NCBI GenBank assembly: GCA_900318645.1 | Contig: ONLH01000028.1 | Span: forward strand, 97,724 to 161,723 | Direction of reading: 5' to 3' | DNA from: an uncultured Prevotellaceae bacterium | GTDB taxonomy: Bacteria > Bacteroidota > Bacteroidia > Bacteroidales > Muribaculaceae | Length of the DNA stretch: 64,000 nt | Shown: positions 7,010 through 40,842 of the stretch, in pieces | Numbering within the stretch: the first letter of the stretch is position 1 | How the letters are laid out: each line of letters begins with the position of its first letter | Notes under the pieces: generated by a model | The model's database searches: none | What the model was told of the DNA's origin: nothing | What the model saw: the letters and a program-made list of their open reading frames with translations, nothing else | Position numbers and translations under genes: made by a program

Positions 7010-7067
7010 CAAGAATACAGCAGCATCCGCCATCATGGTATAACATGAATGTCCATAAATAATCCAT

Positions 7068-7118
7068 GAATGGTCACAAATAATTCATTAATGATTATTC
7101 GTGGCCATTCGTGTTTTT
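7068..7118 (+). terminator. Terminator after obgE
   Basis: Imperfect 17-bp stem (7068-7084 with 7094-7110, two G-U type changes), 9-nt loop, followed by GTGTTTTTA. Confidence 0.7.
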
Positions 7119-7167
7119 ATTGATAGATATGTGGTAACTATCAGAGTTTCAGAATATTCAATACTCT

Positions 7168-8232: not shown

Positions 8233-8270
8233 TGGGTTTATCGTGTTTATGTTATAATCGGCTCATTTAT

Positions 8271-8312
8271 AAAAGATTGTGGGCCCTATCGCACATCGCA
8301 ATAGGGCCCACA
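8271..8312 (-). terminator. Terminator after the long uridine-kinase-like gene
   Basis: Perfect 12-bp stem (8278-8289 with 8301-8312) with an 11-nt loop. Read on the minus strand it runs into a short U-rich stretch, directly after the stop of the gene at 8322 and before the start of the gene at 8232. Confidence 0.75.
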
Positions 8313-8321
8313 GTTAGTCCG

Positions 8322-10007: not shown

Positions 10008-10095
10008 AGCTGCTCTGTAGTTTTTGATGAAAAATTGGTCGTGTCATGGCAAATCAACTGCTGTGTTTTGCGCTTGTCGCGCCCAATTTTGGGCG

Positions 10096-10103
10096 CAAAG
10101 GTA
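10096..10103 (-). promoter_or_regulatory. -7 promoter box for the long nucleoside kinase gene
   Basis: Minus-strand TACCTTTG, 88 bp before the ATG at 10007. A 7-bp stem hairpin (GCGCCCA / TGGGCGC, 10078-10095) lies at the start of the predicted leader. Confidence 0.5.
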
Positions 10104-10208
10104 CAAATTTTTCCCGAAAAAGGTGAACTTTAAGTAACAAATGGTTCATAAATGGCAGAAAATTGTCTTTTTTTTTGTGTTCATACATAAAAAATGAATT
10201 GGATTCTT

Positions 10209-10216
10209 TACCTTTG
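10209..10216 (+). promoter_or_regulatory. -7 promoter box for the MBL-fold gene
   Basis: TACCTTTG, 36 bp before the ATG at 10253. Confidence 0.55.
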
Positions 10217-10252
10217 ACGTGCAAGAAATAATTGTAACACCAATAAAATCCA

Positions 10253-11014
10253 ATGATGAAAATAAAGTTTTTTGTTATGGCTATGATGATTGTTGGCGCC
10301 ATGGGCAGTTGCACGGCGCAGAGTGGAGAGAATGTGGAGCCCGGTTGTGACGTTTTCAAGACTGAGCAGGGCACGACAGTGAAAATGTACTGCATCAAAC
10401 ACGGCAGCGTCAGGATGCAGCTGGGAGAGAAATGGGTTTATGTGGACCCGGTGACGACGGCCGTAAAGCCTGTGACCGACTACTCTACCCTACCCCAGGC
10501 CGACTATATCCTGGTGACACACGAGCACTTTGACCACCTGGACTCGGTGGCTATCAACCAGTTGAGCAAGCCGGGTACCGTGCTCATCACCAATGCCCGC
10601 TGCCATGAAATCCTGGGCGGCAAGGGTGACGTGATGGCCAATGGCGACAGCCGCACATTGCCAGAAGGCTGGACCGTGGATGCTGTTCCCGCCTACAACA
10701 ACTCGCCCGAAAAGCTCCAGTTCCACCCCAAGGGCCGTGACAACGGCTTCGTGCTGACCATTGAGGGTATGCGTATCTACATCGCCGGCGACACCGAGGA
10801 CATCCCCGAGATGGCCGACATCAAGGGCATCGACGTGGCTTTCCTGCCCTGCAACCTGCCCTACACGATGACGCCCGAGCAATGCGCCCACGCGGCCCAG
10901 ATGATCAAGCCCACCGTGCTATTCCCCTACCACTACGGCCAGACTGACATCCAACAGGTAGTCAAGCTCCTTGACGGCAGTGGCATTGACGTGAGAATCA
11001 GGGATTACCAGTAA
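10253..11014 (+). CDS. MBL-fold metal-dependent hydrolase lipoprotein (UlaG-like)
   Basis: 253 residues. The lipoprotein signal ends in GAMGSC near residue 19, so the enzyme is exported and lipid anchored. The metallo-beta-lactamase fold shows THEHFDHLD (the H-x-H-x-D-H zinc motif), AGDTED (bridging Asp) and a late His in LFPYHYGQTD. The order and the short length resemble the UlaG/YfiT-type group rather than true beta-lactamases. Substrate unknown. Its own promoter and a bidirectional terminator flank it. Confidence 0.85.
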   Translation: MMKIKFFVMAMMIVGAMGSCTAQSGENVEPGCDVFKTEQGTTVKMYCIKHGSVRMQLGEKWVYVDPVTTAVKPVTDYSTLPQADYILVTHEHFDHLDSVAINQLSKPGTVLITNARCHEILGGKGDVMANGDSRTLPEGWTVDAVPAYNNSPEKLQFHPKGRDNGFVLTIEGMRIYIAGDTEDIPEMADIKGIDVAFLPCNLPYTMTPEQCAHAAQMIKPTVLFPYHYGQTDIQQVVKLLDGSGIDVRIRDYQ

Positions 11015-11064
11015 AGGACGTCACGTCCCTATAGTGACTAGTTGCTATAGCCCATTAATAAACG

Positions 11065-11108
11065 GCTGCCGCCGCGACCTTCATCAGGTGCGACGGCAGC
11101 TTTTCTTA
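11065..11108. terminator. Bidirectional terminator between the MBL gene and susD-1
   Basis: Stem GCTGCCGCCGC with GCGACGGCAGC (one mismatch), followed by TTTTCTTA on the plus strand. It sits between convergent genes. Confidence 0.65.
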
Positions 11109-11142
11109 TGGTGACCCGCAACGGGGTCAAGCGTTCATCCAA

Positions 11143-12858
11143 TTACCAACCGGGGTTCTGGCCAATCTCGGGATTCAGGTTGCGCTGATCGTCGGGAATG
11201 GGGAACAGGTTGTACTTGGGATCCCACTTGCGGGGAGCACCGTTGTTCGAGCAGTTGATGTAGCCATCGGGGTCAACATTGATTTCATCAAGGCTGATGG
11301 GGCTAAATCCGAGAACGTATGCACCACGGCACAGGTTGGGATTGTTGTCGGTGTCGAGCAACGAGAGCTGGTTCCAACGCAGCAGCGAGAAGTAGCGGTC
11401 GTTCATGCAGTACATCATCTCGACGCGGCGCTCACGGCGAACCTCCCAAATGATGGGGCTCACGCCCATGTTGTTAGCGGGATCGGCCTCAACGCTGGTA
11501 TAGAGGTGAGGCATGCTCACGCGGTCACGCAGCAGGTTGATGGACTTGTCGAGGTCGTTCTGGGTGATGGTACCCAGCTCGGCGCAAGCCTCGGCATAGT
11601 TCAACAGGATCTCGGCATACCAGAAGATGGGAGCGTCGGTCCAGTTACCATAGGTGCTCTGACGGTTGGTGTTGTCGATCAGGTTGGTATCGAACAGGAA
11701 TACACCATAACCCGTCGATGCGGTGGACTGAGCACCGCCGAAGCGGGCGTAACCACTACCGGGGAATTGGAGGATCTTGTCCACCTGAGCGCTCAGGCGC
11801 GGGTCGCGGTTAGCGAGCACGTTGCTGATGTCGATGTGGGGAGCCTCACCCAGACCCGAGTTGTCGTCGAGGACAACTACGGTACCGTGGTCGGTCTTGT
11901 TCAGAGCGGTGGTAGCCAAGGGCTTGCCATCCTTGAACAGGTAGCTGTCGAAGGCATCCTTGGTCATACCCTTAACCTGTGTTGAACCGCAGGTGTAGTC
12001 GATGGTACCGTGTGCAAGTGTACCCAAAATGTAGTGCTTGTACAGGATCATCTCCTTGTTACCAGCCAGATCAAGCGAGTTGAAGTTAGCCTGGTAGTTG
12101 CTGTTCAGGCTGAAGTTGCCCGAGTTCATGATTTGCTCACAAGCGTTCTTGGCCTCGGTGAGGAACTTGTTGGCACGGTCATTGTTCTTGGTCACATACT
12201 TGCTGTAGTCGCCCTCATAGAGGCAAACCTCGGCCTTCATGGCCAGAGCAACCCACTTGTTGAAAGCGGTGCGTGAGCCAGCATTGTCGGTGATGTTGGT
12301 GCAAGCGAAGTTCAGGTCCTCAAGCACCTTGTCCATCACGTTGTTGCGGGGCTGACGGGGACCGTACAGGATATCCTCGTCATCGGGGTCAAGCACCTCG
12401 TCCACCCAATAGCAGTCACCATAGGCGCGAACGAGTTTATAGTGTTGCCATGCGCGGTACAAGCGACCGATACCCAGCCAATTGGCCTTCCTGGCATCGC
12501 TCATCGACTCAACGCCGGGAATAGCGTCAATGAGAATATTGGCACGACGGATCTCAGTATAGGGCGTGCTCCAAGCAGCAGCGCTACCGGGAACACTCAG
12601 ATAGGACCAGTTGGTGATACCAGTAGAGGCCTGGTCGTCGTTCAGCGTGTTGAAATAGTAGTCACCACTGCCGCTTCCATAACCCGTAAAGGTGTTATAG
12701 AAATAGTTGGCGAACAGCTGGACGTTGTTCTCACTGGTAAAATAGTTGTCCTTGGTAAACTGATCATAGGGATCAGTGTCGAGCACATCTGAGCAAGATA
12801 CCAGCGACAGCAAGGCAACACCCAGTCCACACAGAATAATTGATTTCAATGATTTCAT
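11143..12858 (-). CDS. SusD/RagB-type nutrient-binding lipoprotein (pair 1)
   Basis: 571 residues from MKSLKSIILCG (ATG at 12858); the frame extends nine codons upstream, but the lipoprotein signal begins at this Met. Lipobox LLSLVSC, then the SusD pattern: DTDPYDQFTKDNYFTSENNV, WLGIGRLYRAWQHYKLVRAYGDC, IFWYAEILLNYAEACAELG and WEVRRERRVEMMY near the C-terminus. SusD proteins cap the outside of a SusC transporter and hold its glycan or peptide ligand. Located 33 bp after susC-1 on the same strand. The first 12 residues are almost the same as in the SusD of pairs 2 and 3. Confidence 0.93.
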   Translation of the reverse strand: MKSLKSIILCGLGVALLSLVSCSDVLDTDPYDQFTKDNYFTSENNVQLFANYFYNTFTGYGSGSGDYYFNTLNDDQASTGITNWSYLSVPGSAAAWSTPYTEIRRANILIDAIPGVESMSDARKANWLGIGRLYRAWQHYKLVRAYGDCYWVDEVLDPDDEDILYGPRQPRNNVMDKVLEDLNFACTNITDNAGSRTAFNKWVALAMKAEVCLYEGDYSKYVTKNNDRANKFLTEAKNACEQIMNSGNFSLNSNYQANFNSLDLAGNKEMILYKHYILGTLAHGTIDYTCGSTQVKGMTKDAFDSYLFKDGKPLATTALNKTDHGTVVVLDDNSGLGEAPHIDISNVLANRDPRLSAQVDKILQFPGSGYARFGGAQSTASTGYGVFLFDTNLIDNTNRQSTYGNWTDAPIFWYAEILLNYAEACAELGTITQNDLDKSINLLRDRVSMPHLYTSVEADPANNMGVSPIIWEVRRERRVEMMYCMNDRYFSLLRWNQLSLLDTDNNPNLCRGAYVLGFSPISLDEINVDPDGYINCSNNGAPRKWDPKYNLFPIPDDQRNLNPEIGQNPGW

Positions 12859-12891
12859 AATTATATCTGTTTTAATTGAGTTCATTACTAA

Positions 12892-15800
12892 TTACTTCAC
12901 GATAATTTCGCAGATGGAAACACGGTTCCAGCTCAGTTCATCAAACATGTTGCTGATGCCCTGACCCTGGGCGTTGATGCGCTTGGCATCAATACCATAC
13001 TTCTTGACGAGCATATCCTTCACGCTGGCGGCACGGCCGTTGGCGAGGGTAATGTTACGCTCGAGGGGACCGTCCTTGGAGGCATAACCGTTGATGGTGC
13101 AGGTAGCCTCGGGGTGGCTCTTCATGTAAGCGGCGATGCGCTCAACATTGGGCTGCTGGTCGGCATATACTGCCATCGAGTTGATGGGGAAGTGAACCAG
13201 GATGGTCATGTACTGCAGCGACCTGTCAATCATGCCGCTCTTGCTCTTCTGGCAAGCATCGAGATCCCTCTGGAGCTGGGTGTTGCGGCTGTTGGCAGCG
13301 TTGAGCTGGTTCTGCAGGTCAGCGAGGCGAGCATTGTAGCTGTTCTCGGCATCGGCGAGCTGTGCGCGCAGGTCATTGATCTGAGCGTTCAGGGCGCTGT
13401 TGTCGCCAGGAACGACGACGCCAGAGCGGCTGTTGCTGCCGAAGGTCAGTTGCAGACCACAAGAGTAGGTACGCATGATAGGATCGGTACGACCCCAAAC
13501 TGCGTTACCATAGGAACCCACACCGGTGTTGATCTCGGGATCGAGACCGGTACCGTTGCTGTGGTTGATGATGTCGAACAGGTTGTCGGTCGAAGCATAG
13601 ATGCGCAGCTTCTCGATGAGGACTTTGCGGGTCAAGTGCTGCGGCAGGGTGTAACCCACGGTGATGTTCTTCATGCGCAGGTAAGCCATGTTCACCAGAT
13701 ACTTGGTCTGGGGATAGAAGTTGAACTTACCCAGATCGAGGATGTCGCTTGAAGCGTTACCACGGCCAGCGCCACCAGCCCACATGCGGGGGAATTTGGC
13801 ATTCTGGTCAATCCTCTGTGCGGCATAGTCAGCCTCGGTCACATAGCTGGTCTGGTTGGTATAGATAGCATCGGCACCACGCATGAACGGCATCACGAAT
13901 GCAGACTGGGTCCACATGTCGCGCTTGCCCACGCCCTGCAGGTAGAAGTCAACGTCGAAGCCCTTCCAGGCAGCACCCAGACGCAGCGAGTACTGATAGC
14001 GCGGGGTGAAGTTACCGATGCGCTTCAAGTCACCGTGATCCTCGGGAGTACCCTTACCCCAATCGATGACGCCGTCACCATTCAGGTCCTTGAACTTGAT
14101 ATCACCAGGGCCGTAAACAAAGCCATTGGACTCCAGCTTGGTCTGGCTGGCAACGCCAGCGGCATAAGTACCATCAGCGTTGAAGTCGCTGAAGTTGAAG
14201 TAGCGGTCGGTCTCAAAGCCCCAGATTTCGCCATACTCCTTACCAGAGTATTTGGTGTTGATCATGTTGTTGCTGTCCCACTTGGTGATCTTGGTCTTAT
14301 AGTCACTTACGATGGCGGTAGCATAGAAATCAACATTGCCGATGCGGTTGCGGTAGTCAACACTGACTTCCCAACCACGGGTGCGCATATCACCAGCATT
14401 CTCCCATGCGGCACTTGCACCGATGACAGCGGGCAAAGCCTTACCGGGAGCGAGCATGTTCTTGTTTTCACGCTGGAACCAGTCGGCGACTACATTCAGG
14501 TGGCCGTTAAAGAAGGCGAGGTCAACACCCACGTTGGTGGTTGCGATCTTCTCCCAAGTCAGGGATTCAGAAACCATCTTGGGAACACCAAAGAAATCTG
14601 TGAGCAAATTATTTGTGCCTAACCAATTAACCTTAGTGCTGCTCTTACCATAGTCCCTGTTCTTCTCCATGGTCTCGAGGAACATGTAATCACCCACCTC
14701 CTGGTTACCGATCATACCATAAGATGCACGGATCTTGGCATTGCTGATGGTATTCTTGATGGGAGCCCAGAAGGCTTCCTCGCTGATGCGATAACCGATA
14801 GATGCCGAGGGGAAGAACGCCCACTGATCCTTCTTGGGGAACTTGCTCGAACCATCATAGCGGCCGTTCAACTCGAGCAGGTAGATGCCCTTGTAGTCAT
14901 AGTTGATGCGGCCGAAGAAGCCTGCCGAACCCCAGTGGTTGTGGTGGTGCTCATAGCTGTAGAAGTCATTGGTAAGCGCCAGTTCAGGCATGTTGAGGTC
15001 TTGAAGACCGTGCTGCTCGAAGTAGAGGTACTCCCAATCAGTCTTGTCAACATTGGCACCCACCTTCAGGTTGAAGTTGTGAGCGTCCTTGATTGAACGG
15101 CGCCAGTCGAAGTAACCGTTGGCCACATGGTTCTCAGTGAAGGCGCGTGAGGTCTCGATGAAGGTCGAGCTCGTGATGTCCACGGGACCTTGAGGATTCA
15201 GACCCCAAGTGTTATAGACTACCGAGGGAAGACCTACGCCTTTATACCTATTGGTCCTCTTGATGAAGGTGTAGTCGGCATTGAAGCTCAGACCGTAGCC
15301 GAAGTCAATCTTGCCAAATACGCCCAGACTCATGTTGTTCATCTTGTAGTAGCAGTCACCACCGGTGTTGCGGCCACCAATCATCGTGCGGGCGTCATAC
15401 TGCTTGCCGTCGTTAGGATCTACAAAGTAGCCGTAGGGGCCGAAGAACGAACCCCAGCGCCACAGGTACTGATAGGTACCGGCACCACGCTTGTAGGGGG
15501 TGTTATAGGTCCTGTCCACATAGCTGACGCGGGTACCCAGCTCCAACCAGTCGGTAGCGCGTACCGAAACGTTGGCGGTAGCGTTGTACTTGCGGAACTT
15601 GTCGGGGTTGAAGTTCATCAACGACTGCTTCTGGTTGTAACCTACCGAGGTGTAGAAGTTGATGCGGCCCGAGTTACCGGTTACACTCAGGTTGTGGCTC
15701 TGTGAGGGAGCGGCGTTGTTGAACATGATGCCGGGCACATCCCAGTTGGCATAGTAGCCATATTCATCATAGTCGTCACCATAGACCATCTGACGATATT

Positions 15801-16746
15801 TATCCTTGATGTCGCCATGCTTACTTATCCAGTTGTTCATACCACGAGTGAATTCCTCGCTGTCCAGATACATACCGAAGAGCTCGGATGCAACACCCAT
15901 GCGTTTGTTCACATCATTGAGGGCGCCCACCTGGGTGGGAACGTTGGGATAGTCGGGCAAGGTGGTAGCTTGGCTCCAAGCGAAGTTGTTGTTGTAGCTC
16001 ACCCTGACGTTGTCCTTGACGTGAGCGGTCCTGGTAGTGATCAAAACAACACCGAAGGCTGCACGTGTACCGTAGATCGAGGTCGAAGCAGCATCCTTCA
16101 GGACACTGATGTTCTCGATATCGGCGGGGTTCAGGTCACCCAGACTTTCTACGGGAACACCGTCAACGATGTACAACGGGTTAGAAATACCGTCGTTGGA
16201 CAGCGTACCGATACCACGGATAACAATCGAAGGATCGGCACTGATGTCACCGTTGGCATTCAAGATCGTCAAGCCGGGAACGGTACCCTGCAGGGACTTA
16301 CGGACGTCGGTCTCGGACTTGGAACCGAGCACCTTGTCAACGTCCACGGTGCTCACAGCACCGGTCAGGTTGGCCTTGCGCTGTGTACCGTAACCAACGA
16401 CTACGATCTCATCGAGATGGGCGTTGTCCTCGGCGAGAACGACGCGCATGCCACTGGTGCCACGCAGGGTCTGCGTCTTGTAGCCGATAAACGAAACTTG
16501 AAGCTTAGCATTAGGGCTAGCTTTGAGCGAGAAGTTACCGTCCACATCGGTCGATGTGCCACGGGTCGTTCCAACCTCGACAATGCTGGCGCCGATGACG
16601 GGTTCTCCCTGCTCATCGACAACACGGCCTGTCACAATGCTGGTGGCGGAACTAGCCGTCACCTGGGGCGCGGGTGCTGCCTGTGCCTGGTAGCCAGTAC
16701 CGCACAGCATCAACAATGCGCCCAAAAGAGCTAAATGTCTTTTCAT
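12892..16746 (-). CDS. SusC/RagA TonB-dependent transporter fused to OmpA-like domain (pair 1, intact)
   Basis: 1284 residues from the ATG at 16746; a GTG two codons upstream is less likely. Signal peptide about 1-25; CarboxypepD_reg-like domain about 38-115 (VTGRVVDEQGEPVIGASI, VDGNFSL); the SusC motif DEIVVVGYGTQ and TonB plug to about 235; outer-membrane barrel to about 1120 with last strand YSCGLQLTFGSN. Then, unlike an ordinary SusC, a coiled coil (NAQINDLRAQLADAENSYNA and on to about 1175) and a 105-residue OmpA-like domain (GYASKDG, NGRAASVKDMLV, NRVSICEI). In typical OmpA domains a HTD-type Asp and a RA-type Arg hold peptidoglycan; here the Arg is kept and the Asp position reads Ser. 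Imports a ligand delivered by SusD, powered by TonB. Confidence 0.93.
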   Translation of the reverse strand: MKRHLALLGALLMLCGTGYQAQAAPAPQVTASSATSIVTGRVVDEQGEPVIGASIVEVGTTRGTSTDVDGNFSLKASPNAKLQVSFIGYKTQTLRGTSGMRVVLAEDNAHLDEIVVVGYGTQRKANLTGAVSTVDVDKVLGSKSETDVRKSLQGTVPGLTILNANGDISADPSIVIRGIGTLSNDGISNPLYIVDGVPVESLGDLNPADIENISVLKDAASTSIYGTRAAFGVVLITTRTAHVKDNVRVSYNNNFAWSQATTLPDYPNVPTQVGALNDVNKRMGVASELFGMYLDSEEFTRGMNNWISKHGDIKDKYRQMVYGDDYDEYGYYANWDVPGIMFNNAAPSQSHNLSVTGNSGRINFYTSVGYNQKQSLMNFNPDKFRKYNATANVSVRATDWLELGTRVSYVDRTYNTPYKRGAGTYQYLWRWGSFFGPYGYFVDPNDGKQYDARTMIGGRNTGGDCYYKMNNMSLGVFGKIDFGYGLSFNADYTFIKRTNRYKGVGLPSVVYNTWGLNPQGPVDITSSTFIETSRAFTENHVANGYFDWRRSIKDAHNFNLKVGANVDKTDWEYLYFEQHGLQDLNMPELALTNDFYSYEHHHNHWGSAGFFGRINYDYKGIYLLELNGRYDGSSKFPKKDQWAFFPSASIGYRISEEAFWAPIKNTISNAKIRASYGMIGNQEVGDYMFLETMEKNRDYGKSSTKVNWLGTNNLLTDFFGVPKMVSESLTWEKIATTNVGVDLAFFNGHLNVVADWFQRENKNMLAPGKALPAVIGASAAWENAGDMRTRGWEVSVDYRNRIGNVDFYATAIVSDYKTKITKWDSNNMINTKYSGKEYGEIWGFETDRYFNFSDFNADGTYAAGVASQTKLESNGFVYGPGDIKFKDLNGDGVIDWGKGTPEDHGDLKRIGNFTPRYQYSLRLGAAWKGFDVDFYLQGVGKRDMWTQSAFVMPFMRGADAIYTNQTSYVTEADYAAQRIDQNAKFPRMWAGGAGRGNASSDILDLGKFNFYPQTKYLVNMAYLRMKNITVGYTLPQHLTRKVLIEKLRIYASTDNLFDIINHSNGTGLDPEINTGVGSYGNAVWGRTDPIMRTYSCGLQLTFGSNSRSGVVVPGDNSALNAQINDLRAQLADAENSYNARLADLQNQLNAANSRNTQLQRDLDACQKSKSGMIDRSLQYMTILVHFPINSMAVYADQQPNVERIAAYMKSHPEATCTINGYASKDGPLERNITLANGRAASVKDMLVKKYGIDAKRINAQGQGISNMFDELSWNRVSICEIIVK

Positions 16747-16752
16747 AAGCAC

Positions 16753-17191
16753 GTTTTAATTTGTTAATATTTAGTGAGTTAATTCAATAAGTTTGCTATC
16801 GTAAACTGCCGCTTCACGCACGTGAGCGCATTTGAGTTCAGTTAATCGCTTTTTAGTAAGGTGCAAAATTCATTAATTTTTTTGAAATAGCCAAAAAAAG
16901 GGGGCTGATTTTACAAATACAAACGTTAAATATCATAAAAAAATGTACAAGACACATAAATTAACACCCAAAAACTACCATTTTTAATAGGAGTTGTTTT
17001 ATTTTTTCGCTCAAAGATTTGGTCATGTTAATTTTTGTTTGCAAATTTGCCTACTTAAAACCCGCTATAGCCATTAGGCAATAGCTAAAAGCTATTAGTT
17101 GGCCTCCGCTAAAATTGAGTATTGCGACAAAAGATAAGAGATAATAAAGTCAGTAAATTTCAATTTTTTATAAATTTTAAACTAAGTGCGT
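16753..17191. promoter_or_regulatory. Divergent control region between susC-1 and susC-2
   Basis: About 440 bp of AT-rich DNA without a gene, between two divergent susC genes, so both promoters should lie here. I could not place a convincing -33/-7 pair. A small hairpin (AATAGCT, AAA, AGCTATT; 17080-17096) could be an operator or structure. No sigma, anti-sigma or hybrid two-component gene is next to it. Confidence 0.4.
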
Positions 17192-20100
17192 ATGAAAAAA
17201 CAATTAGCACTGTTGGCCGCCCTGGCAATCGCCTGCGGAGCACCGGCTGGGATGACATCGCTTCCCAGTACGGGTTTCACAGCCGAGGCCCAGGCCAACA
17301 AAGTCTCTGGCGTCATACGTGACGCCCAAGGTGAGCCTCTCATCGGCGCGACCGTCAAGGTCAAGGGTACCAACCGCGGTACCGCCACCGATGTGGACGG
17401 CAAGTATTCAATCAACGCCAATCGAGGTGACGTGCTCGTCATTTCCTACGTGGGCAGTAAGCCCATGGAGGTTACCGTGGGCAGCGGTGTCATGGACATT
17501 GACATGGCAGCCAATGACCAGGTCCTCGACGAGGTTGTTGTAACCGCACTCGGTATCCGCAAGGACAAGAAGTCGCTGGGTTATGCAGTTGACGACTTGA
17601 AGGCCGAGGAACTGATGCGCAACAAGAGCGCAAACGCCATCAACTCCCTGTCGGGTAAGATTGCTGGTGTTAACATCACCCAGTCGTCTGGTGCTGCCGG
17701 TTCGGGTGCACACATCGTGCTACGTGGCGGTACTTCGGTCAGCGAGAATTACGACAATCAGCCGCTGTTCGTTGTCGATGGTGTCATCTACGACAACTCG
17801 GCAGGTGTTGTAGGTAACTCAGCATTCGATGGTATGATGAACAGTGCCACCACCTCTTCTAACCGTGTGATGGATATCAACCCCGAGGATATCGACAATA
17901 TGTCGGTACTGAAAGGCCCGGCCGCATCGGCCCTCTATGGCTCGCGTGCTGCCAATGGTGTTGTAATCATTACCACCAAGAAAGGTAAGGAAGGCCACTC
18001 TGAGGTGAACTTCTCAGGTAAGATGATCCTTTCGACCGTGGCTAGTCTGCCCAAGTACCAGAATGAGTACGTTCGCGGTTATATGACCGATATGTACGAG
18101 AAAGGTGCTGACGGCAAGAGTGTTTGGACTGGTATGGACATCAAGGACGACAGCTACAATTCATGGGGTCCCAAGAATACTTCTGTTCCCTTCTATGACA
18201 ACCTGAAGAACTTCTTTGAGACCGGTGTCATTTGGGATACCAACCTGAGCGTTAGCGGTGGTACCAAGAACAACAACTTCTTCCTGAGCGGTTCATTCTA
18301 CGATCAGGACGGTATCGTTCCCACCACGGGCTACACCAAGACGACCTTCCGCTTCAACGGCTCCCAGCGATGACATGCGTCACTACCTGAACGAGGACGG
18401 AACGCGCTATCGCATGTTCGGTGACCAGTTCCAGCCCTGGGACGAGCGTGACAACCCCTACTGGATTGTTAACAAGAACAAGATGACCGATGATACCGAG
18501 CGTTTCACCGGCAACTTCAACGTGAAGTGGGATCTGTTCGACTGGTGGTGGCTGAGCTACCGCATGGGTGTCGATAGCTATACGACCCAGAGCCACAATA
18601 CAATCGCTCCCGGTGGCGCAATCAAGCAGATCTGGCAGAAGGGTATGTTGAGTGACAACATGTACAAGTATCGCTACCTGAGCAACAACCTGATGTCGAA
18701 CTGGGGCAAACAGTTCGGTGACTTCAACGTCAACTTGATGTTGGGTGGTGCTACCGAGTACACCAAGACCCGCCGTGACTATGAGTCGGCTTGGAACTTC
18801 GCCGTGCCTGAATTCTATAGCTACAACAATGCCAGCGATGCTGACAAGAAGTTTAGCCACAGTACGAGTCGCAAGCGTCTGGCTTCACTCTTCGGTGAGT
18901 TCCGCATCGACTGGCGCAACGCCATCTTCCTGACCGTTACTGGCCGTAACGATTGGGATTCGACCCTTCCCAAGGAGCACTGGAGCTACTTCTATCCCAG
19001 TGTGAGTGGCGCTATCGCCTTTACCGAACTCTTCCGTGAGAGCCTGCCCGACTGGTTCTCCTTCGGTAAGATCCGTGCCAGCTGGGCTGAGGTAGGTAAG
19101 GGTACCAGTCCCTATGAGACAGGTACAACCTTGTGGCCAGTAAGCACTTTCCTGGATGGTCTGATGGGTCTGGGTAACAGCTGGACTCGCGGTAACCCCT
19201 ATTTGAAGCCTGAGACCACCCGTTCAACCGAGGTTGGTCTTGAGTTGCGCTTCATCCAGAACCGCTTGAAATTTGACATTGCTTACTATACCAACAACTC
19301 ATACGACCTGATTCTGTCACCGCGTGGCCCGCAGTCAACCGGTTACATCTTTACCTCCTACAATGCAGGTAACGTTTACAACAAGGGTCTTGAGATCAGC
19401 CTGAGTGGTACCCCCATCCAGCATGAGAACTTCATCTGGGAAACCGGTATCAACGTCTATGGCAACCGTGGCACAATCGACAATCTGTATGCTGGTATGG
19501 ACATTATGTACGTGACCGATGTACAGTATGCTGGTGCTAAGGCTGCAACCTTCAACGGTAGCAACTTCATGGGTATCTCTGGCACCAAGTGGAACCGTAA
19601 TGCCGATGGCAAGTTGATTCTTGACGCTAACGGCTTCCCCACCGAGGATAAGAAGCAAGATGCATTTGAAGTCGGTGACCGTGAGCCCAAGTTCCAGGGT
19701 GGTTGGAACAACACCTTCACCTTCTTCAAGAACTGGACCTTCAACATGTTGTGGGAGTTCCGTTATGGCGGTGACGTCTTCAACGGTACCAAGTATGCCA
19801 TGTCGATGAGCGGTGTAAGCGCACTCTCTGGCGACTGGCGCAACGATCCCCTCACCATCGAGGGTGTATTCCAGACGGGTACAGATGATAGTGGCAAGCC
19901 CATCTATGAGGCTGTATCCAACACTTGGAAAGCTGATCAGAACTACATCTTTAATGGTGTCGAGACTAGTGGTTCTACCATTATCCAGAACTACTACACT
20001 GGTGCTTATAATTATGAGACCCGCAACTGGATCACTAACGTGAAGAGCCTGCGTCTGCGCACCATCTCTTTGACCTATGATGTTCCCCGTAGCTTCCTGG

Positions 20101-20843
20101 CCCGCACCAAGTACATCAAGCGCGCTTCAATCACCGCATCTGCCAACAACCTGTTGCTGTTCACCAACTATGACGGTGATCCCGAGGTGGCTGCTGCAGG
20201 TGCTGGTGTCGGTGGTTCGTCATCGGTAGGCTTCGACTACTGCGGCGTTCCCGCTACCCGCTCTTATGCTGTGGGTATCAACCTGGTATTCGGTACCGAT
20301 GATGTTGCTCCCGCTCGTGTGAACAACGTTGAACTCGACCTCTTGAATGGTCAGATCAACGATCTGCGCACCCAGCTGGCTAACTCTCAGAACGCAAGCA
20401 ATGCACGCATCGCACAGCTCGAGAACGACTTGGCTGCTGCTAACCGCGCTCTGACCAACTGCAAGAACGACCTGAATGCTGCCAAGAATGTTGCTCCCAA
20501 GGTGGTTGACAACAGCAAGCAGTACATGAACATCCTGGTTCACTATCCCAAGTCAGGTACCAGCATTACCGCTGACCAGCGTGCCAACGTTGAGCGTATT
20601 GCCACGTACATGAAGAGCCATCCCGAGGCCACCTGCGTTATCAAGGGTTATGCTTCGCCCGAGGGCAAGGAGGATGTTAACGTCAAGCTCGCTAACGGCC
20701 GTGCCGCCAGCGTGAAGGATATGCTCGTCAAGAAGTATGGTATCGCTGCCAACCGCATCAAAGCCGAGGGTCAGGGTATCAGCAACATGTTTGACGAATT
20801 GAGCTGGAACCGTGTTTCCATCTGTGAGATCATCGTGAAGTAA
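17192..20843 (+). pseudogene. SusC/RagA-OmpA fusion, broken by internal deletion and frameshift (pair 2)
   Basis: The first part (17192-18373) has a signal peptide, CarboxypepD_reg-like domain (VSGVIRDAQGEPLIGATV), DEVVVTALGIRKDKKSLGYA and the plug, and stops at TTFRFNGSQR. The second part continues in another frame from about 18363 (PSDDMRHYLNEDGTRYRMF) to 20843. In related transporters the FRFNG strand is normally followed by several dozen residues before such a DM-HYLNEDGTRY segment, so sequence has been lost at about 18360-18366 along with the frame. The C-terminus has the coiled coil (NGQINDLRTQLANSQNASNA) and OmpA-like domain (about 20526-20843). As it stands only a 393-residue truncated protein is made from the natural start. 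Real decay or assembly error cannot be told apart here. Confidence 0.85.
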
Positions 20844-20854
20844 GTATAAATTGA

Positions 20855-20930
20855 GTCGTCAGTTGTCAGTCGTCAGTTGTCAGCGGCATCCGCAATCAAC
20901 TGAAAACTGAAAACTGAAAACTGAAAACTA
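20855..20930. repeat. Short tandem repeat tracts between susC-2 and susD-2
   Basis: Two tracts: GTCGTCAGTTGTCAG written twice over 20855-20883, and CTGAAAA-type 8-bp units repeated four times at 20898-20930. They fill the space between two genes that should be co-transcribed. A degenerate relative (GGACTGAAAACTAAAAACTT) stands in the same place before susD-3 at about 25142. Confidence 0.75.
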
Positions 20931-20942
20931 AAAGAAAATAAT

Positions 20943-22836
20943 ATGAAATCATTGAAATCAATTATACTGTGCGGTCTGGGTGTTGCGATGTTATCACTCA
21001 CCTCTTGCAACGACTGGTTGGATGTGAACGTGGATCCCAATAACCCCACGGACAAAATCACAAGTTATGACCAGCGTCTGGCGCACATTGAGTTCTATAC
21101 CAATAGCGGTTTGCAGTTCGGTGCTTGGCGTACCACCATGGCCATGGGTGACTGGACCCGTAACAACGGTGGCGGTAACTACTGGCACGTTTCCTATTGG
21201 TATCCCGTTGAGGGCCAGGTAACCACTGTTTATCAGTGGTGGTTCGTTGGTGCATACGCCAACGTGCCTGACATGATTACTAAGGCCGAGGCCGCCGAGA
21301 ACTGGCAGTTTGCCGGTGCCGGCTACCTGATCAAGGCTTACGGCTTTATGGCCATGACCGACCTCTATGGCGAAATGCCATATGAAGAGGCTGCCGCTGA
21401 CAGCCCTGCTCCCCACTACAATACGGGTAAGGAAATTTATTTAGGTTGCTTGGAGACCATCGACAAGGCCATCGAGTACCTTGAGAAGGGTCAGAGCCAG
21501 GATCCCAGCCTGCCCACTCTCGCTGCTGGTGACTTCTGGAACCATGGCGATCTGAACAAGTGGATCAAGCTCGCCTACATGCTGAAGGCCCGCTGGATCA
21601 ACAAGTTGAACAAGAAAGGTGCCGGTAGCTACAAGGATGGTAAGTATGACGCTGATGAGATCCTGCGCTGTCTTGACAAGGCCATGCAGAGCAATGCCGA
21701 CAACACCATCGTGAACCACACCGACGACAACGGCCCCACGCACGACGTGCTGGGTTGGGATGAGCCCGTTGACTACTCGCCCCTGTTCTCGGTTAGCGGT
21801 ATGAACTCCGGTTACATGGCTACCAAGATGCTCTATGACAACCTGACCAACTTCGCTGGTAAGGGTGTCGAGGATCCCCGTGCCGACCACATCCTGCCTT
21901 GGGCTTACAGTCCCAATAGGAGCGAAGTTGGTGTTGATGCTGCCGGCATCAAGTGGAATGGTCACTGGCGCCGTACGCTGGGCGTTGACATGGCCAGCGA
22001 AATCAATAGCCAAGGTGGTCCCCTGCGCGCCATGTTCAACACGACGACCAACAGCTGGTACATCAACAGTTCCAACGAGGCCCGCAAGGGTGATACTGTC
22101 TATATCGAGGGTACCAGTGACTGCAAGGGTTACTTCGCTAATCCTAGCATCCTGTACTGCCGCGCCGGTAGTGGCAAGTTTGAGTCGGCTGAGTCTGGTA
22201 CGTTCTATACCCGCGTAAGCTCGCCCACCTACATCGGTACCTATGCTGAGTGCTGCTTCATCAAGGCTGAGACCCTCTTCAAGAAGGGTGACAAGGCTGG
22301 CGCTTACGAGGCCTACAAGAAGGGTGTCAAGGCTAGCTGCGAGCTGATGAATGAAAAACTTGAAGCATGGATTGCCGAGGATGCAAGCCTCGCTGACTGC
22401 CCGTCGTTTACCCCGATGACCGATGAGGCTATCGACAACTTCGTGAACAACGGTATCGGTACACAGGCTGAGTTGACCATTGGTCACATCCTGATGCAGA
22501 AGCGCATCGCCCTCATGTTCTCCTATGAGATCTGGAACGATATGCGCCGCTATGACTTCGATCCCAACATCTTCTTCGGTTGGTCGATTCCCGCTGTCGA
22601 TTCCCGCTTACCACTATAAGGTGGTTGCCGCAACCAATGCTATCCCCGAGGGCAAGCAGTATCGCCGCTGGCGCCAGTGCTCACATGAGTACAAGTACAA
22701 CAGTGTGAACTTGCAGGCCATTGGCGAAAAGGTTCCCGGCGCCCGCATGACTGACAGCGAGGGCAACAAAGTGATTTGGAACACTCAGGATGATGCTTGG
22801 ACCATCCCCGTATGGTGGGACAGCAACCAAGAGTAA
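20943..22836 (+). pseudogene. SusD/RagB lipoprotein broken by a 13-bp tandem duplication (pair 2)
   Basis: SusD-type lipoprotein: signal MKSLKSIILCGLGV, lipobox LSLTSC, then DWLDVNVDPNNP, LIKAYGFMAMTDLYGEMPY and, near the end, LMQKRIALMFSYEIWNDMRRYDFDP. The frame runs into a stop at 22619 (558 residues). The cause is visible: GTCGATTCCCGCT occurs twice in tandem at 22583-22595 and 22596-22608. Removing one copy gives FGWSIPAYHYKVVAATN and an open frame to TAA at 22836, a 626-residue protein with a usual SusD C-terminus. The duplication is therefore the only visible lesion. It sits 99 bp after susC-2. Confidence 0.9.
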
Positions 22837-22854
22837 TCCCCCACTCCATCTGAA

Positions 22855-22898
22855 AACAACGTCCGCCGAGGCAAAAACGCCCCGGCGGCGTTTTTTTT
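22855..22898 (+). terminator. Terminator after pair 2 (copy A of a repeated terminator)
   Basis: Stem CGCCGAGGC with GCCCCGGCG, then eight T. The same hairpin and T run recur at 28001-28042 and 29634-29676. Confidence 0.85.
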
Positions 22899-22963
22899 CA
22901 GTTAGGAGTGAGGAGTTAGAAGTGAGGAGTTTTGGCGTAAGGAACGGTGAGCTTGAGGTTGGC

Positions 22964-23110
22964 GATGCAGACGCCCGGAAGGCAGCCCTCTGCGTATCCC
23001 GCGTGGAGTCAGGTATGAGTGATGTAGACGCCCGAAGGGCGGCCCTCTGCGTATCCCGCGTGGAGTCAGGTTTGGGCGATGTAGACGCCTGAAAGGCGGC
23101 CCTCTGAGTA
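22964..23110. repeat. 57-bp direct repeats, 2.5 copies, REP-like
   Basis: Units start at 22964, 23021 and 23078, an exact 57-bp period. Each opens with GATGYAGACGCCYGRARGGC, which carries a small GCCC-GAA-GGGC type hairpin, then SCCCTCTG. The first two run on to CGTGGAGTCAGGT; the third diverges after CCCTCTGAGTAAC and enters a long hairpin. Together they form the left flank of a RAYT element. Confidence 0.8.
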
Positions 23111-23243
23111 ACCCGTGGTACCTGCCACCGTAACGAGCGTAGCGAGTGCAGGGGCAGGCACCACGGGAGAAGCGATACAAAATAAATGTCGCTGGAGGCG
23201 ACCCCACTGCCAGGCATGTCTTGTGTAGTTGCAGCATTCTGTG

Positions 23244-23251
23244 TACCTTTG
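23244..23251 (+). promoter_or_regulatory. -7 promoter box for the RAYT gene
   Basis: TACCTTTG only 7 bp before the ATG at 23259, so the transcript would be nearly or fully leaderless. It argues against the TTG start further upstream. Confidence 0.5.
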
Positions 23252-23258
23252 CTCCATC

Positions 23259-23708
23259 ATGAGTTATACCCATCTTGTCTATCATATCGTCTTTCGTACT
23301 CATCGCAGCATCCCTGCTATTGATGAGCAGCATGAGCGGGATTTGTATGCCTATATTCACGGCTACATTATGAAACATAAGGCGAAACTATATCGCATTG
23401 GCGGTATGCCTGATCATATCCACATGCTTGTATCAATACCCCCTGATATAGCGGTTTCAGAGTTCATACGAGGACTGAAATATGCTACAAGCAATTGGTT
23501 AAAACATAACCCTTTATTTCCTTTGTTTTCAGGCTGGGGTGAAGGATATGCCGCTTTCACCTACTCCAAGGAGCAGATTCCAGTGGTAAAACAATACATC
23601 ATCAATCAGAAAGAACATCACCACAAGACCACTTTTGCCGAGGAGTATAGGCAGTTTATCCTAGAAAATGGCGGTGAGATTAATGAGGCTTATTTCCTGA
23701 AGGACTGA
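23259..23708 (+). CDS. IS200/RAYT-type Y1 transposase
   Basis: 149-residue HUH-type single-strand transposase. The HUH motif is HIH in GMPDHIHMLVSIP; the catalytic tyrosine is most likely in VVKQYIINQKEHH. Such enzymes nick and rejoin single-stranded DNA at hairpins; RAYT members act on REP-type hairpins and usually stay at one locus. All motifs are intact, so the protein may be active. It is AT-richer than the flanking sus genes, and REP-like hairpins surround it. The start at 23259 (MSYTHLVYHIVF) is the usual family N-terminus. Confidence 0.88.
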   Translation: MSYTHLVYHIVFRTHRSIPAIDEQHERDLYAYIHGYIMKHKAKLYRIGGMPDHIHMLVSIPPDIAVSEFIRGLKYATSNWLKHNPLFPLFSGWGEGYAAFTYSKEQIPVVKQYIINQKEHHHKTTFAEEYRQFILENGGEINEAYFLKD

Positions 23709-23940
23709 CACTGATGGGGTCGCCAGTTATATTAGGCATGTAACCGGTGGTGCCTGCCACTCACTCGCTTCGCTCGTTGCGCTGGCAGGTACCACCGGTT
23801 ACTCAGAGTGCCGCCCTTCGGGCGTCTTTTCCGCATGGCATGATGTCTCGGTGCAGTCGTAGCGTATTACGCTCATCCATCGGTTGTTACTCACGCATAA
23901 TTCCTGTCATTGTTCTCGCCCAGCGGGCGAGCCTCTGAGT

Positions 23941-25071
23941 AACCGTGAGCCTAAGCTGCGCTTCGGTTTCACCACCGCCCTGAGCGTGAAGAACTGGCGC
24001 CTGAGCGCTATGTTCCAGGGCCGCTACCATGCCGACGTTGTCAACGCTACTATGCGTGACATGTTGGGCACCGGTCTTAACTGGCTGTCGGTTGACATGC
24101 GTGAGAAGGGTTTCGTAGTGTTTGACGGCGTGCTCTACGACGGCAAGCAGGAGAGCGACAATCCCACCAAGAACACCATCGCCGTTAACCTGGGTGAGTA
24201 TGGTTCATATACCTACACCGGTGGTGATGAGGACTGGATCCAGCACAAGATCAACTACATCCGTTGCCAGGAGCTGCGTTTAGCCTATGTGTTCCCGCAC
24301 AACTGGCTGAACCGCGTGACCAAGGGTACGGTACAGAACGCCAGCATCTATGCTTCGGCCAACGACTTGTTCACCATCACCAACTACACGGGTACCGACG
24401 TTGCCGGTAACACCCTGTCGGCTGCTGCCGGTGGTACCGGTGGTGAGGGCTACGACTGCTGGTCGCTGCCCACCCCGCGTAGCTACTCTGTCGGTCTGAG
24501 TGTGACCTTCGGTTCCAACGACGAGGCTTCCAAGCCCGTTTACACCAACACCAACGTCCTCAATGACCAGATCAACGACCTGCGTGCACAGCTCGCCAAC
24601 GCCGAGAACAACTTCAACGGCCGTCTGGCTCAGCTGCAGAACGACCTCGACGCCGCTAACCGCGCGTTGAACAACTGCAAGAGTGACCTGATCGCTGCTA
24701 AGAACGCACCTAAGGATATTGCCACCAAGGTGGTTGACAACAGCAAGCAGTACATGAACATCCTGGTTCACTATCCCAAGGCTGGTACCAGCATCACCGC
24801 CGACCAGCGTGCCAACGTTGAGCGTATCGCTGCCTACCTGAAGAGCCATCCCAATGCTACCTGCGAAATCAAGGGTTACGCTTCACCCGAGGGCAACCAG
24901 GAGAATAACATCAAGCTCGCTAACGGCCGTGCCGCCAGCGTGAAGGACATGCTCGTCAAGAAGTATGGTATCGCTGCCAACCGCATCAAAGCCGAGGGCC
25001 AGGGTATCAGCAACATGTTTGACGAATTGAGCTGGAACCGTGTTTCCATCTGTGAAATCATCGTGAAGTAA
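23941..25071 (+). pseudogene. SusC-OmpA remnant: C-terminal part only (pair 3)
   Basis: The coding similarity begins abruptly at NREPKLRFGFTTALSVKNWR, which aligns with GDREPKFQGGWNNTFTFF in the SusC of pair 2. Signal peptide, plug and most of the barrel are missing and I see no trace of them upstream, where the RAYT element stands. What remains is the last barrel strands (YSVGLSVTFGSND), a coiled coil (NDQINDLRAQLANAENNFNG) and the OmpA-like domain (about 24754-25071). The OmpA part is close to that of pair 2 at DNA level. Without a signal peptide it should be non-functional, unless the missing part was lost in assembly. Confidence 0.88.
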
Positions 25072-25169
25072 GTATAAATAAAGTTTAAAGTTTAGGGTTT
25101 AGAGTTTAAAGTGATTTAAGCCACTGTAAACTAATGACTAAGGACTGAAAACTAAAAACTTAAAAATAT

Positions 25170-27056
25170 ATGAAATCATTCAAATCAATTATACTGTGTG
25201 CGCTGGCTTGCATGACGTTGGGCTTGGCATCCTGTGACGATTATCTGGATGTGAACAAAAATACCGACGCTCCCGACTATGTGGAGGGCTACCTCTACCT
25301 GGCCGGCATTCAGCAGGCCTATCAGGGCATCTACTGGGACCTGCGTGCCATCGCCCCGCTCACCCAGATGATGGGTACTTCGAGCTACACCAATTTTGCC
25401 AACCACTACTACACCAAGGCCAGCGATGCCGGTGGTGAGGCTTGGCGTATGGTTTACTGGAACCAGGGTATGAACCTGGAGAACATGATCAACCAGAGTG
25501 TCGAGGCCGAGAACTGGACATTGGCAGGTATCGGCCTGGCCATGAAGGCTTTCTCTTGGGACCTGTTGACCAAGGTCAATGGCGAGGCTCCCATGAAGCA
25601 GGCCTATGAGGCTGGACGTCTCTCCCACGAGTATGACTATCAGTACGATATCTATCCCCAGGTGCGCGAGTGGGCTTATCAGGCCATCGAGTATTTGCAG
25701 ATGGAGGACAATTCGGCCTATGGTAACCGTATCAAGAACAACGACTACATCTATGGTGGCGACAAGGAAAAGTGGATTAAATTCGCCTACGCCGTTATTG
25801 TCCGCAACCTGGCCTCGTTGAGCAACAAGAAGGACTTCTCTGAGAAATATCTTAGTGAGTTCATGGACGCTTTCCACAAGTCTTTTGCCAGCAACGATGA
25901 CAATGCTACCTTGAAGATTGCCGGTGGTGGCGCCGATGCTGCCGAGAGCGGCTATAACAACTTCTGGGGTACTTACCGTGGCAACCTGGTTTACAGCTAC
26001 TTCCAGCACGACTATGCCGTGCAGTTGTTCACGGGTACCATCCGCAAGTATGACGAGCAGGGCAACTACATCCAGACCGAGGATACCCTGCCCCTGAACA
26101 AGCAGCACTATCCCTATCAGCTGCTCGACAAACAGATTACTAGCGACACGCTGCCCGATGCCGGTCACTTCGATCCGCGTCGCCTCGTGAAGCTGGCTAC
26201 GACCGACAGCAGCAATTATGCCACTATCGCCGACCGCGAGGTGCTCCGCAGCCTCTACTACGTGGGTTCGGGCTTCACTGGCGCTACTGGCCCCATCGGC
26301 ACTGCTCCCTCGTTCTGGGGCCGCAATGCTACCAGCAACACCACCTATGACGGTGCTGGCCACTGGCTCTACTACGACAATGCTCCCTACATCATGACCA
26401 CCTATGCCGAGCTGTTGTTTGACGTTGCCGAGGTGCTGTTCAAGTATGGCAGCAAGGCCGATGCCTTTGAGGTTTGGAAGCAGGCTTTGCAGGCCGATAT
26501 GGACTTCACTGCCAGCTATATCGTTCCCGGTACCTTGAACGGCAACTACCGTCAGGGCGACCGTGTGACCAAGGCTACCTTCAACACCCTGGCTCAGGAA
26601 TACCTGAATGGTCCCTACGTGGCAGGTCTGCCGCAGAGCGAATTCTCACTTTCGCACATTATGATGCAGAAGTATCTGGCCATGTATCCTTGGGGCGCTA
26701 TCGAGACTTGGGTTGACCTGCGCAAGTACTTCTATGATATCAAGTACACTGGCGATTATCCCAAGTATGGTAACGGTTGGGACAGGACGACCCTCGACCA
26801 GAAGTTGGATACCGATCCCACCAAGGTTTACAAGGGATTCTGGCTGCAGCCTGCACAGGTACAGGGCCGCAAGAGCGCCTTCAATACCGACAACAACGGT
26901 TCGCCTTGCTTCCGCCTGCGCCCGCGCTACAACTCAGAGTACATGTGGAACAAGACCAACCTGGATGCTCTCAAGCCCATCGGAGGTCAAGAGCTTGATT
27001 ACCAGTGCTCTATCATGTGGTTCTGCTATCCTGGTGATATGCCTACTACAAGATGA
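25170..27056 (+). CDS. SusD/RagB-type lipoprotein (pair 3)
   Basis: 628 residues, complete. Lipoprotein signal MKSFKSIILCALACMTLGL with Cys at LASCDD, then YLDVNKNTDAPD, YQGIYWDLRAIAPLTQMMG, a TPR-like helical region (ENWTLAGIGLAMKAFSWDLL), YAELLFDVAEVLFKYG and, near the end, LSHIMMQKYLAMYPWGAIETWVDLR. It should cap the SusC of its own pair, which is now only a remnant, so its partner is lost or elsewhere. Followed 27 bp later by a small lipoprotein gene, probably in one operon. Confidence 0.93.
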   Translation: MKSFKSIILCALACMTLGLASCDDYLDVNKNTDAPDYVEGYLYLAGIQQAYQGIYWDLRAIAPLTQMMGTSSYTNFANHYYTKASDAGGEAWRMVYWNQGMNLENMINQSVEAENWTLAGIGLAMKAFSWDLLTKVNGEAPMKQAYEAGRLSHEYDYQYDIYPQVREWAYQAIEYLQMEDNSAYGNRIKNNDYIYGGDKEKWIKFAYAVIVRNLASLSNKKDFSEKYLSEFMDAFHKSFASNDDNATLKIAGGGADAAESGYNNFWGTYRGNLVYSYFQHDYAVQLFTGTIRKYDEQGNYIQTEDTLPLNKQHYPYQLLDKQITSDTLPDAGHFDPRRLVKLATTDSSNYATIADREVLRSLYYVGSGFTGATGPIGTAPSFWGRNATSNTTYDGAGHWLYYDNAPYIMTTYAELLFDVAEVLFKYGSKADAFEVWKQALQADMDFTASYIVPGTLNGNYRQGDRVTKATFNTLAQEYLNGPYVAGLPQSEFSLSHIMMQKYLAMYPWGAIETWVDLRKYFYDIKYTGDYPKYGNGWDRTTLDQKLDTDPTKVYKGFWLQPAQVQGRKSAFNTDNNGSPCFRLRPRYNSEYMWNKTNLDALKPIGGQELDYQCSIMWFCYPGDMPTTR

Positions 27057-28042: not shown

Positions 28043-28105
28043 AGCCATAAACAAGGTCAAAACCTCAACGGATTATGATTTTCTCACAGTTTCGCTAAAA
28101 AATTG

Positions 28106-28113
28106 TATCTTTG
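28106..28113 (+). promoter_or_regulatory. -7 promoter box for the AlbA_2-type gene
   Basis: TATCTTTG, 22 bp before the ATG at 28136. It overlaps the region of an upstream TTG at 28103 and so decides for the ATG. Confidence 0.6.
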
Positions 28114-28135
28114 CTTTCAAGAAATAGACCTTTTT

Positions 28136-40764: not shown

Positions 40765-40798
40765 TAAACTGATAACAGAGTTTATCGTAATAGGTAAA

Positions 40799-40842
40799 AG
40801 ATGTGACGGGACGATATAAATGTTCCGTCACATCTGTTTTTT
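40799..40842 (+). terminator. Terminator after M6 protease gene 1
   Basis: 12-bp stem (AGATGTGACGG with CCGTCACATCT core), then TGTTTTTT. Confidence 0.8.

Follow-up and report, generated by a model that had tools for sequence, protein, structure and literature searches.

SusC-type importers with an OmpA-porin-like periplasmic tail, and their probable anchoring to peptidoglycan, in one lineage of ruminant-gut Bacteroidales

A stretch of 64,000 nucleotides from an uncultured Prevotellaceae bacterium (contig ONLH01000028.1 of assembly GCA_900318645.1, positions 97,724 to 161,723; hereafter the window) contains three SusC/SusD pairs between positions 11143 and 27056. The window is part of contig C58 of a genome of 3.6 Mb in 75 contigs. 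An ordinary SusC ends right after the last strand of its barrel. In the window, copy 1 of SusC does not stop there and carries approximately 180 extra residues, which comprise a coiled coil and an OmpA-like domain (Table 1). An earlier note on this DNA had described three such fusions. All three tails are indeed present, but only copy 1 is intact, copy 2 being split between two frames and copy 3 being a remnant. In a sister genome, RUG362 (ONJS01000008.1), all three fused SusCs are intact and in the same order, with frames of 1287, 1285 and 1252 amino acids (aa).

Table 1. Features of the three SusC/SusD pairs, in positions of the window.
Feature	Position	Strand	Basis
SusD-type lipoprotein, partner of copy 1 (SusD_RagB, SusD-like_3)	11143..12867	-	Pfam
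Copy 1, intact SusC-OmpA fusion, 1284 aa	12892..16746	-	CarbopepD_reg_2, plug, barrel, coiled coil, OmpA domain; RUG362 ortholog and named loci
OmpA-like domain of copy 1, from just ahead of the first strand to the C-terminus	12895..13215	-	PF00691 44.4 bits, model, Foldseek
Coiled-coil helix of the copy 1 tail, 53 residues	13243..13401	-	AlphaFold2 model of 12895-13440, helix 14-66
Copy 2, N-terminal piece: CarbopepD_reg_2, plug, barrel start; frame broken at end	17186..18373	+	Pfam, TIGR04056, frames
Copy 2, C-terminal piece: remaining barrel, coiled coil, OmpA domain	18375..20843	+	Pfam, TIGR04056, frames, RUG362 alignment
SusD-like_2 partner of copy 2; frame breaks near end, reading continues in another frame	20943..22619	+	Pfam, frames
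Copy 3 remnant: last part of SusC barrel, coiled coil, OmpA domain; 5' part absent in assembly	23939..25071	+	TIGR04056 816-981, RUG362 alignment
SusD-like_2 partner of copy 3	25170..27056	+	Pfam

Copy 1 scores 804.7 bits against TIGR04056 (NCBIfam cut-off 368.25), over residues 38-1102 and profile positions 3-981, whereas the broken pieces of copies 2 and 3 stay below this cut-off. TIGR04057 (the SusC signature), PF07715 and PF13715 were matched in copy 1 and in the N-terminal piece of copy 2. The tails of copies 1, 2 and 3 match the Pfam OmpA family (PF00691, cut-off 27.2 bits) at 44.4, 45.5 and 50.8 bits, respectively. A SusD-type gene (PF07980/PF14322 or PF12771/PF12741) adjoins each of the three copies downstream. 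The fused proteins have the plug, the barrel, the N-terminal carboxypeptidase-like domain and the adjoining SusD gene of SusC/RagA proteins (TIGR04056; e.g., RagA and BT1763), from which they differ in their extension past the last strand. The tailed SusC is regarded here as a variant of SusC and not as a separate kind of machine. No substrate is indicated by the genes in the scanned neighbourhood of the SusC loci. The starts of the three SusD genes (12793-12882, 20919-21008 and 25162-25206) share DNA, while the remainder of the genes differs, which is perhaps a further sign of local recombination.

The tail of copy 1 was modelled with AlphaFold2 (mean pLDDT, the predicted local distance difference test score, of 82). 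Residues 14-66 of the model form a helix of 53 residues, predicted confidently along most of its length, which is followed by an OmpA fold of the order beta-alpha-beta-alpha-beta-beta. In a Foldseek search with this model, the top solved structures were the peptidoglycan-binding domains of OprF and of Acinetobacter baumannii OmpA (ranks 1-7, E 7.9e-11 to 1.9e-9), including complexes of the latter with diaminopimelate and stem peptide, and sequence search agrees (3td3, E 9e-15). The coiled coil between barrel and C-terminal domain, and the OmpA fold of that domain, had both been proposed in the earlier note and are borne out by Pfam, model and Foldseek. A model of plug, barrel and tail together (1174 residues) was weak (mean pLDDT 58.5) and was used for general fold and order of elements only; SusC and RagA structures rank first in its Foldseek search.

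When aligned to 3td3, the tail has Ser at the position of the canonical Asp of the HTD/FTD motif and keeps the Arg of the RA motif. These are the positions that we take to be Asp271 and Arg286 of A. baumannii OmpA. The same combination had been read, correctly, from all three tails of the window in the earlier note and had led to the suggestion that binding may be altered. As a feature of the fusion, this suggestion found no support. Ser occupies the Asp position in all 118 OmpA domains compared (77 SusC tails and 41 porins of the genus), and every one of them has an Asp or Glu two residues past the Ser and keeps the Arg. The idea of a change peculiar to the fusion was rejected on this count. 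The Asp-to-Ser change is, on this comparison, inherited, since it is common to every porin compared, and the acidic residue two positions on may substitute for the Asp. The motif LAx2RAx2Vx3L is kept in 77 of 77 tails, and all 118 domains have Leu-Ala (in one case Ile-Ala) where the family has Leu-Ser, the OmpA-family motif being given as LSx2RAx2Vx3L in the part of PMC5053529 consulted.

A scan of genome contigs with the copy 1 tail gave 119 relatives, the best 80 of which represent 75 distinct loci in 37 assemblies. At least 900 in-frame residues precede the tail in 67 of the 75 loci; of the other eight, six run off their contig and two (L107 and L112) have shorter frames. The same conserved terminal block closes 74 of the 75 frames, the exception (L073) stopping early. 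In an alignment of 33 members (A4), plug and OmpA domains were matched in all members and the Pfam barrel model in 26. An assembly artefact as the source of the fusion was rejected on the strength of these 75 loci in 37 assemblies. The relatives are uncultured bacteria recorded as Prevotellaceae, Muribaculaceae, Porphyromonadaceae or Bacteroidales, and the record titles of several name gut samples of roe deer, goat, sheep or water buffalo.

Among the matches listed, 26 of 61 genomes of the genus, including that of the window, have a SusC frame with the tail, either of SusC size or cut by the contig (the 37 assemblies and these 61 genomes may overlap), and the remaining strong tail matches in the genus are porin frames, mostly of about 390-470 aa. 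For wider samples, a chimeric profile of barrel and tail (A2) was used at E thresholds of 1e-60, 1e-50 and 1e-30 for family, order and phylum, respectively, with the best 4-7 candidates scored per genome; strongly divergent fusions could be missed because of this limit on candidates. Matches spanning barrel and tail occur in 11 of 247 family genomes, all from this genus, with none in the family genomes outside it. The window genome alone gave a spanning match among 295 order and 395 phylum genomes, five other genomes of the phylum sample being matched via the barrel part or the OmpA part alone. A profile of the tail (A1, E 1e-14) matched 24 of 149 order genomes, with frames of at most 437 aa outside the window genome. 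In a plain OmpA search of 19 order genomes at least 12 frames exceeded 840 aa, and a TonB-receptor domain was found in none of the 12 scanned.

Within the samples searched, and so far as profile matches can tell, the fusion is confined to some members of a single ruminant-gut Bacteroidales genus. It was also not found in the titles and abstract starts of the open-licence PMC literature, a scope that excludes subscription papers and architecture databases; the match in PMC12578637 is, in the part available, in the reference list only. The earlier note had left open that the fusion might be a widespread, characterised SusC class and had proposed a domain-order search over Bacteroidota; neither the genomes sampled outside the genus nor the open literature covered here showed such a class. 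A classification of 34,893 TonB-dependent transporters is described as based on N-terminal architecture (PMC6434023, in part). A survey of TonB-transporter domains in Bacteroidetes was reportedly published by Pollet in 2021.

Orthologs were sought with the barrels of copy 1, of copies 2 and 3 (taken from RUG362) and of a fourth type (L111). All query barrels found tailed and untailed orthologs within the genus. Identity to copy 1 is 81-93% for tailed and 66-72% for untailed orthologs; type 1b, which is 49-54% identical to copy 1, also has both. Five SusC ortholog groups (1a, 1b, 2, 3 and 4) bear the tail, and each has untailed orthologs in other species of the genus. Unlike the fused proteins, 39 of the 40 untailed orthologs fetched have their stop directly behind the last strand, and the remaining one is truncated by the end of its contig. 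The tail is conserved in one lineage and absent from the sampled orthologs in other species of the genus. Genomes with untailed genes, G022, G030 and G049 among them, have the same divergent pair as the window, with types 1 and 2 on opposite strands. Genome G002 has a tailed SusC beside an untailed one, and the other SusCs of the window genome above the cut-off are all without tail (12/12). The tails seem to have been added to resident genes.

Selection on the tail was estimated from the ratio of nonsynonymous to synonymous substitution rates (dN/dS) in its OmpA part. Median values are 0.16, 0.10, 0.19, 0.22 and 0.12 for types 1a, 1b, 2, 3 and 4 (15, 11, 10, 16 and 11 rows; L063, L074 and L078 of type 2 and L073 of type 1b were omitted, and pairs with dS up to 0.05 or undefined were dropped), at a median dS of 0.26-0.48. 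The highest value of any single pair is 0.49. By these ratios the OmpA part is under purifying selection. It also holds 54 of the 65 columns that are invariant among 43 tails.

In a barrel tree of 120 rows (68 fused, 40 unfused orthologs and 12 other SusCs of the window genome), the fused label takes 7 changes, each of them required by branches with good support. Within each of groups 1a, 1b, 3 and 4 the fused rows are a single clade, and fused and unfused rows are mixed in group 2. A mixture-model tree of 32 chosen rows (16 fused, 16 not) takes 6 changes. A single fused ancestor of all tailed SusCs was rejected, one clade of the 16 fused rows having a p-value of 1.3e-117 in the approximately unbiased (AU) test. 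As judged from their barrels, the five tailed groups are not one clade. By contrast, the 77 tails form one clade; the 23 fused-lineage porins are its sister group, and 18 porins from other lineages lie outside. The same arrangement was obtained with IQ-TREE on longer sequences (23 tails, 10 fused-lineage and 13 other porins, all chosen): support is 100/99.7 for the tails and 100/99.5 for tails plus fused-lineage porins, the other porins again lying outside. The tail is, on these trees, kin to the lineage's own porin.

This OmpA-type porin (small barrel, coiled coil and OmpA domain, about 420 aa) shares a homologous periplasmic module with the tailed SusC; by eye, homology starts at the start of the coiled coil and runs to the C-terminus. 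It differs in its small barrel, in the lack of a plug and in its stalk. The distance from coiled-coil start to first OmpA strand is 60-65 residues in 70 SusC tails and 51-56 in 22 fused-lineage porins; the sequence pattern used for this measurement did not match 4 further SusC rows or the 18 other-lineage porins. The window genome's own porin (L041, 2910-4137), the closest relative of the tails, is frame-broken in the coiled coil in this assembly. Two genomes, G009 and G055 (the latter 57% complete), belong to the fused lineage by their porin, and no tailed SusC was found in either among the matches listed.

Because the fused barrels are not one clade, yet the tails are one clade that is sister to the lineage's own porin, the probable course is a single capture, from the porin line, of the periplasmic module with its coiled coil and OmpA domain, which then spread over resident SusCs. 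The sister position alone leaves the direction of capture unproven. Loss of an ancestral, genus-wide tail is disfavoured, since the tails branch with the fused-lineage porins after the other porins had split off, although conversion between tail and porin could mimic such late branching. Later tail transfer is supported by L074, in which a type 2 barrel that groups with untailed genes bears a tail of the type 1 kind; L063, likewise with a type 2 barrel, has a tail of this kind as well. Of the 54 rows that allow a test, 49 have tails that go with their type and 5 (from three assemblies) have tails that go with their genome, so that tail conversion seems to continue at a low rate.

Of the 36 assemblies with typed rows, 15 have type 1a, 12 have type 1b and none has both; a fragmentary genome (G023) has matches to both. 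The two types are approximately half identical in their barrels, whereas the nearest DNA matches between their tails show 86-94% identity (15 and 11 rows), and the tails are intermixed in tail comparisons. The slot of copy 1 (L044, L045 and others) holds a SusC of either type 1a or type 1b, with nearly shared tails. From the sequences, this looks like transporter exchange over a common 3' end.

The broken state of copies 2 and 3 is probably a matter of assembly. Copy 2 is split at 18373/18375, with approximately 50-60 SusC profile positions unmatched (331 to 391, or 334 to 382), and copy 3 lacks most of its 5' part, matching TIGR04056 only at positions 816-981 and retaining the tail. Identity of the window to RUG362 is 93.5% over 6873-18372, 76% over 18364-23837 and 92.6% from 23939, from where the window aligns approximately 3 kb further along in RUG362, inside copy 3. 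Both edges of 18364-23837 interrupt a SusC gene, copy 2 at one and copy 3 at the other, and the SusD gene next to copy 2 shifts frame near 22610. Because a stretch of 76% lies between flanks of about 93% and both of its edges break genes, it is probably a chimeric piece of the assembly, with a true rearrangement as the alternative. RUG isolates are presumably rumen genomes.

An open reading frame for an IS200-like Y1 transposase (23316-23705) lies in the region 22964-23134 plus 23316-23827, flanked by 57-nt direct repeats at one end and by an inverted copy at the other. The transposase and repeats at 22964-23827 presumably resemble a REP (repetitive extragenic palindromic) element with its transposase. 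Further along, a region without counterpart in RUG362 has an open reading frame (28103-29590) with Schlafen AlbA_2, HATPase_c_4 and Fic-like_C domains, and 37957-45867 encodes three consecutive proteins that each combine an M6 peptidase with a type I dockerin domain.

Several known systems offer precedents, as far as the available portions of the papers cited here describe them. OmpM of diderm Firmicutes and other Terrabacteria combines tethering and nutrient uptake (PMC10628300); as in the tailed SusC, a single protein has a nutrient channel, a wall-binding domain and a stalk in the periplasm. However, OmpM is a porin with an N-terminal SLH domain (PMC10628300), whereas the tailed SusC is of the plugged, TonB-dependent type and has a C-terminal OmpA domain. 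No SLH domain was found in a Pfam scan of copy 1, which places it outside the OmpM type of tether, and the two may at most work alike. In Neisseria, RmpM, with a domain named OmpA-like (PMC5053529), forms complexes with the TonB-dependent receptors TbpA, LbpA and FrpB, and its loss lowers growth on lactoferrin iron (PMC8497027, citing Prinz and Tommassen 2000). An OmpA-like domain is associated with TonB-dependent receptors in both cases, in trans as the separate protein RmpM (PMC8497027; PMC5053529) and in cis by fusion in the tailed SusC. ExbD contacts peptidoglycan during the Ton cycle (PMC10771500). Within the Bacteroidetes, PorE has been proposed as an outer-membrane tether and further tethers are expected, pal genes not having been detected for this phylum in the genome set cited there (PMC12204202). 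PorE is likewise a multidomain outer-membrane protein with a C-terminal OmpA-type domain; unlike the tailed SusC it is a lipoprotein linked to the type IX system and has no barrel (PMC12204202; PMC5053529).

Peptidoglycan anchoring is most likely the role of the tail, being the best supported. We consider it fairly probable that the fused proteins are wall-anchored SusC/RagA importers that gained an OmpA-porin-like periplasmic module in cis, as the fold, the conserved Arg, the purifying selection and the precedents suggest. The C-terminus of a SusC-type barrel faces the periplasm. From the last strand the tail would exit into the periplasm and reach the sacculus by a helical stalk of some 53 residues, or about 8 nm at 1.5 A per residue. 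The OmpA-type domain that follows would bind stem peptides non-covalently and tie the SusCD pump to peptidoglycan. Such anchoring might fix the pump against the pulling of TonB and keep it within reach of TonB/ExbD, and the tailed importers might double as extra outer-membrane tethers. The module itself would have been captured once from a porin and then passed between SusC genes by recombination.

The same tail might instead work mainly through its helix, by pairing the SusCs of SusC2D2 or by binding an OmpA porin or other periplasmic partner, with wall binding secondary or absent. The confidently predicted helix would suit such a role, and so would a stalk whose length differs from that of the porin. 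However, it is the OmpA part that is the more conserved and is under purifying selection, and a dimerising helix by itself would not need an OmpA domain, which makes this explanation rather unlikely. We regard as similarly unlikely that the tail is a by-product of recombination, in which neighbouring SusCs share 3' ends by gene conversion and the tail is tolerated with little effect on transport. The three tailed SusCs are neighbours both in the window and in RUG362, the tails of types 1a and 1b are intermixed, and in 5 of 54 rows a tail resembles that of a different type within its genome more closely than tails of its own type in other genomes. The untailed SusC that adjoins the tailed one in G002 also fits. 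On the other hand, a tolerated tail would hardly be expected to show purifying selection at the dS values found, or to retain, at 74 of 75 loci, a frame that reads through to the same final residues, and homogenising is only occasional since 49 of 54 rows keep their tails by type.

Retention on the cell is a related possibility: the tail might keep importers out of outer-membrane vesicles rather than align them with TonB. Wall-bound outer-membrane proteins would be expected to stay out of vesicles, and the anatomy called for is the same as in anchoring, so that sequence cannot separate the two; we give this the smallest chance of the alternatives named so far. That SusC and OmpA were misjoined in metagenome assembly is extremely improbable. 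The window does contain a probably chimeric stretch (18364-23837), but the same fusion recurs at the 75 loci and in the 26 genus genomes counted above.

Several points weigh against wall anchoring of the tailed SusCs and its proposed history. The peptidoglycan affinity of the tail is uncertain because the canonical Asp is Ser throughout, in tails and porins alike, and the path of the stalk below the barrel is unreliable because of the poor full-length model. Transport in general does not require anchoring, since the untailed orthologs and the remaining SusCs of the window genome do without a tail. The window genome has further OmpA-domain proteins, one of them with a lipoprotein-like start (L003), and the SusC tails are therefore not the sole possible tethers. 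A parsimony change on the barrel tree may stand for either a gain or a loss, and type 2 mixes tailed and untailed rows. Finally, the tail could have spread by gene conversion with little benefit.

The tailed SusCs bear on the questions of how TonB-dependent outer-membrane pumps come into contact with TonB across the wall and of whether fixation to peptidoglycan matters. Here one domain has been added in parallel to several transporters, and its nearest kin is found within the same genome. The genus also offers natural matched pairs, in which one SusC at one divergent locus is tailed in some genomes and untailed in others, and what anchoring does to mobility, vesicle loss and uptake is therefore directly testable. 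Tailed importers are new candidate outer-membrane tethers in Bacteroidetes, where, according to the part of PMC12204202 available, more of these are to be expected. If anchoring is true, active nutrient import and outer-membrane tethering would be joined in one protein. Somewhat short of an even chance, in our estimate, is the fuller picture, in which this lineage would have made distantly related SusCD importers into wall-tethered pumps by copying its own OmpA module onto at least five groups: a TonB-dependent counterpart of OmpM, possibly with TonB, ExbD and SusC on the same peptidoglycan mesh.

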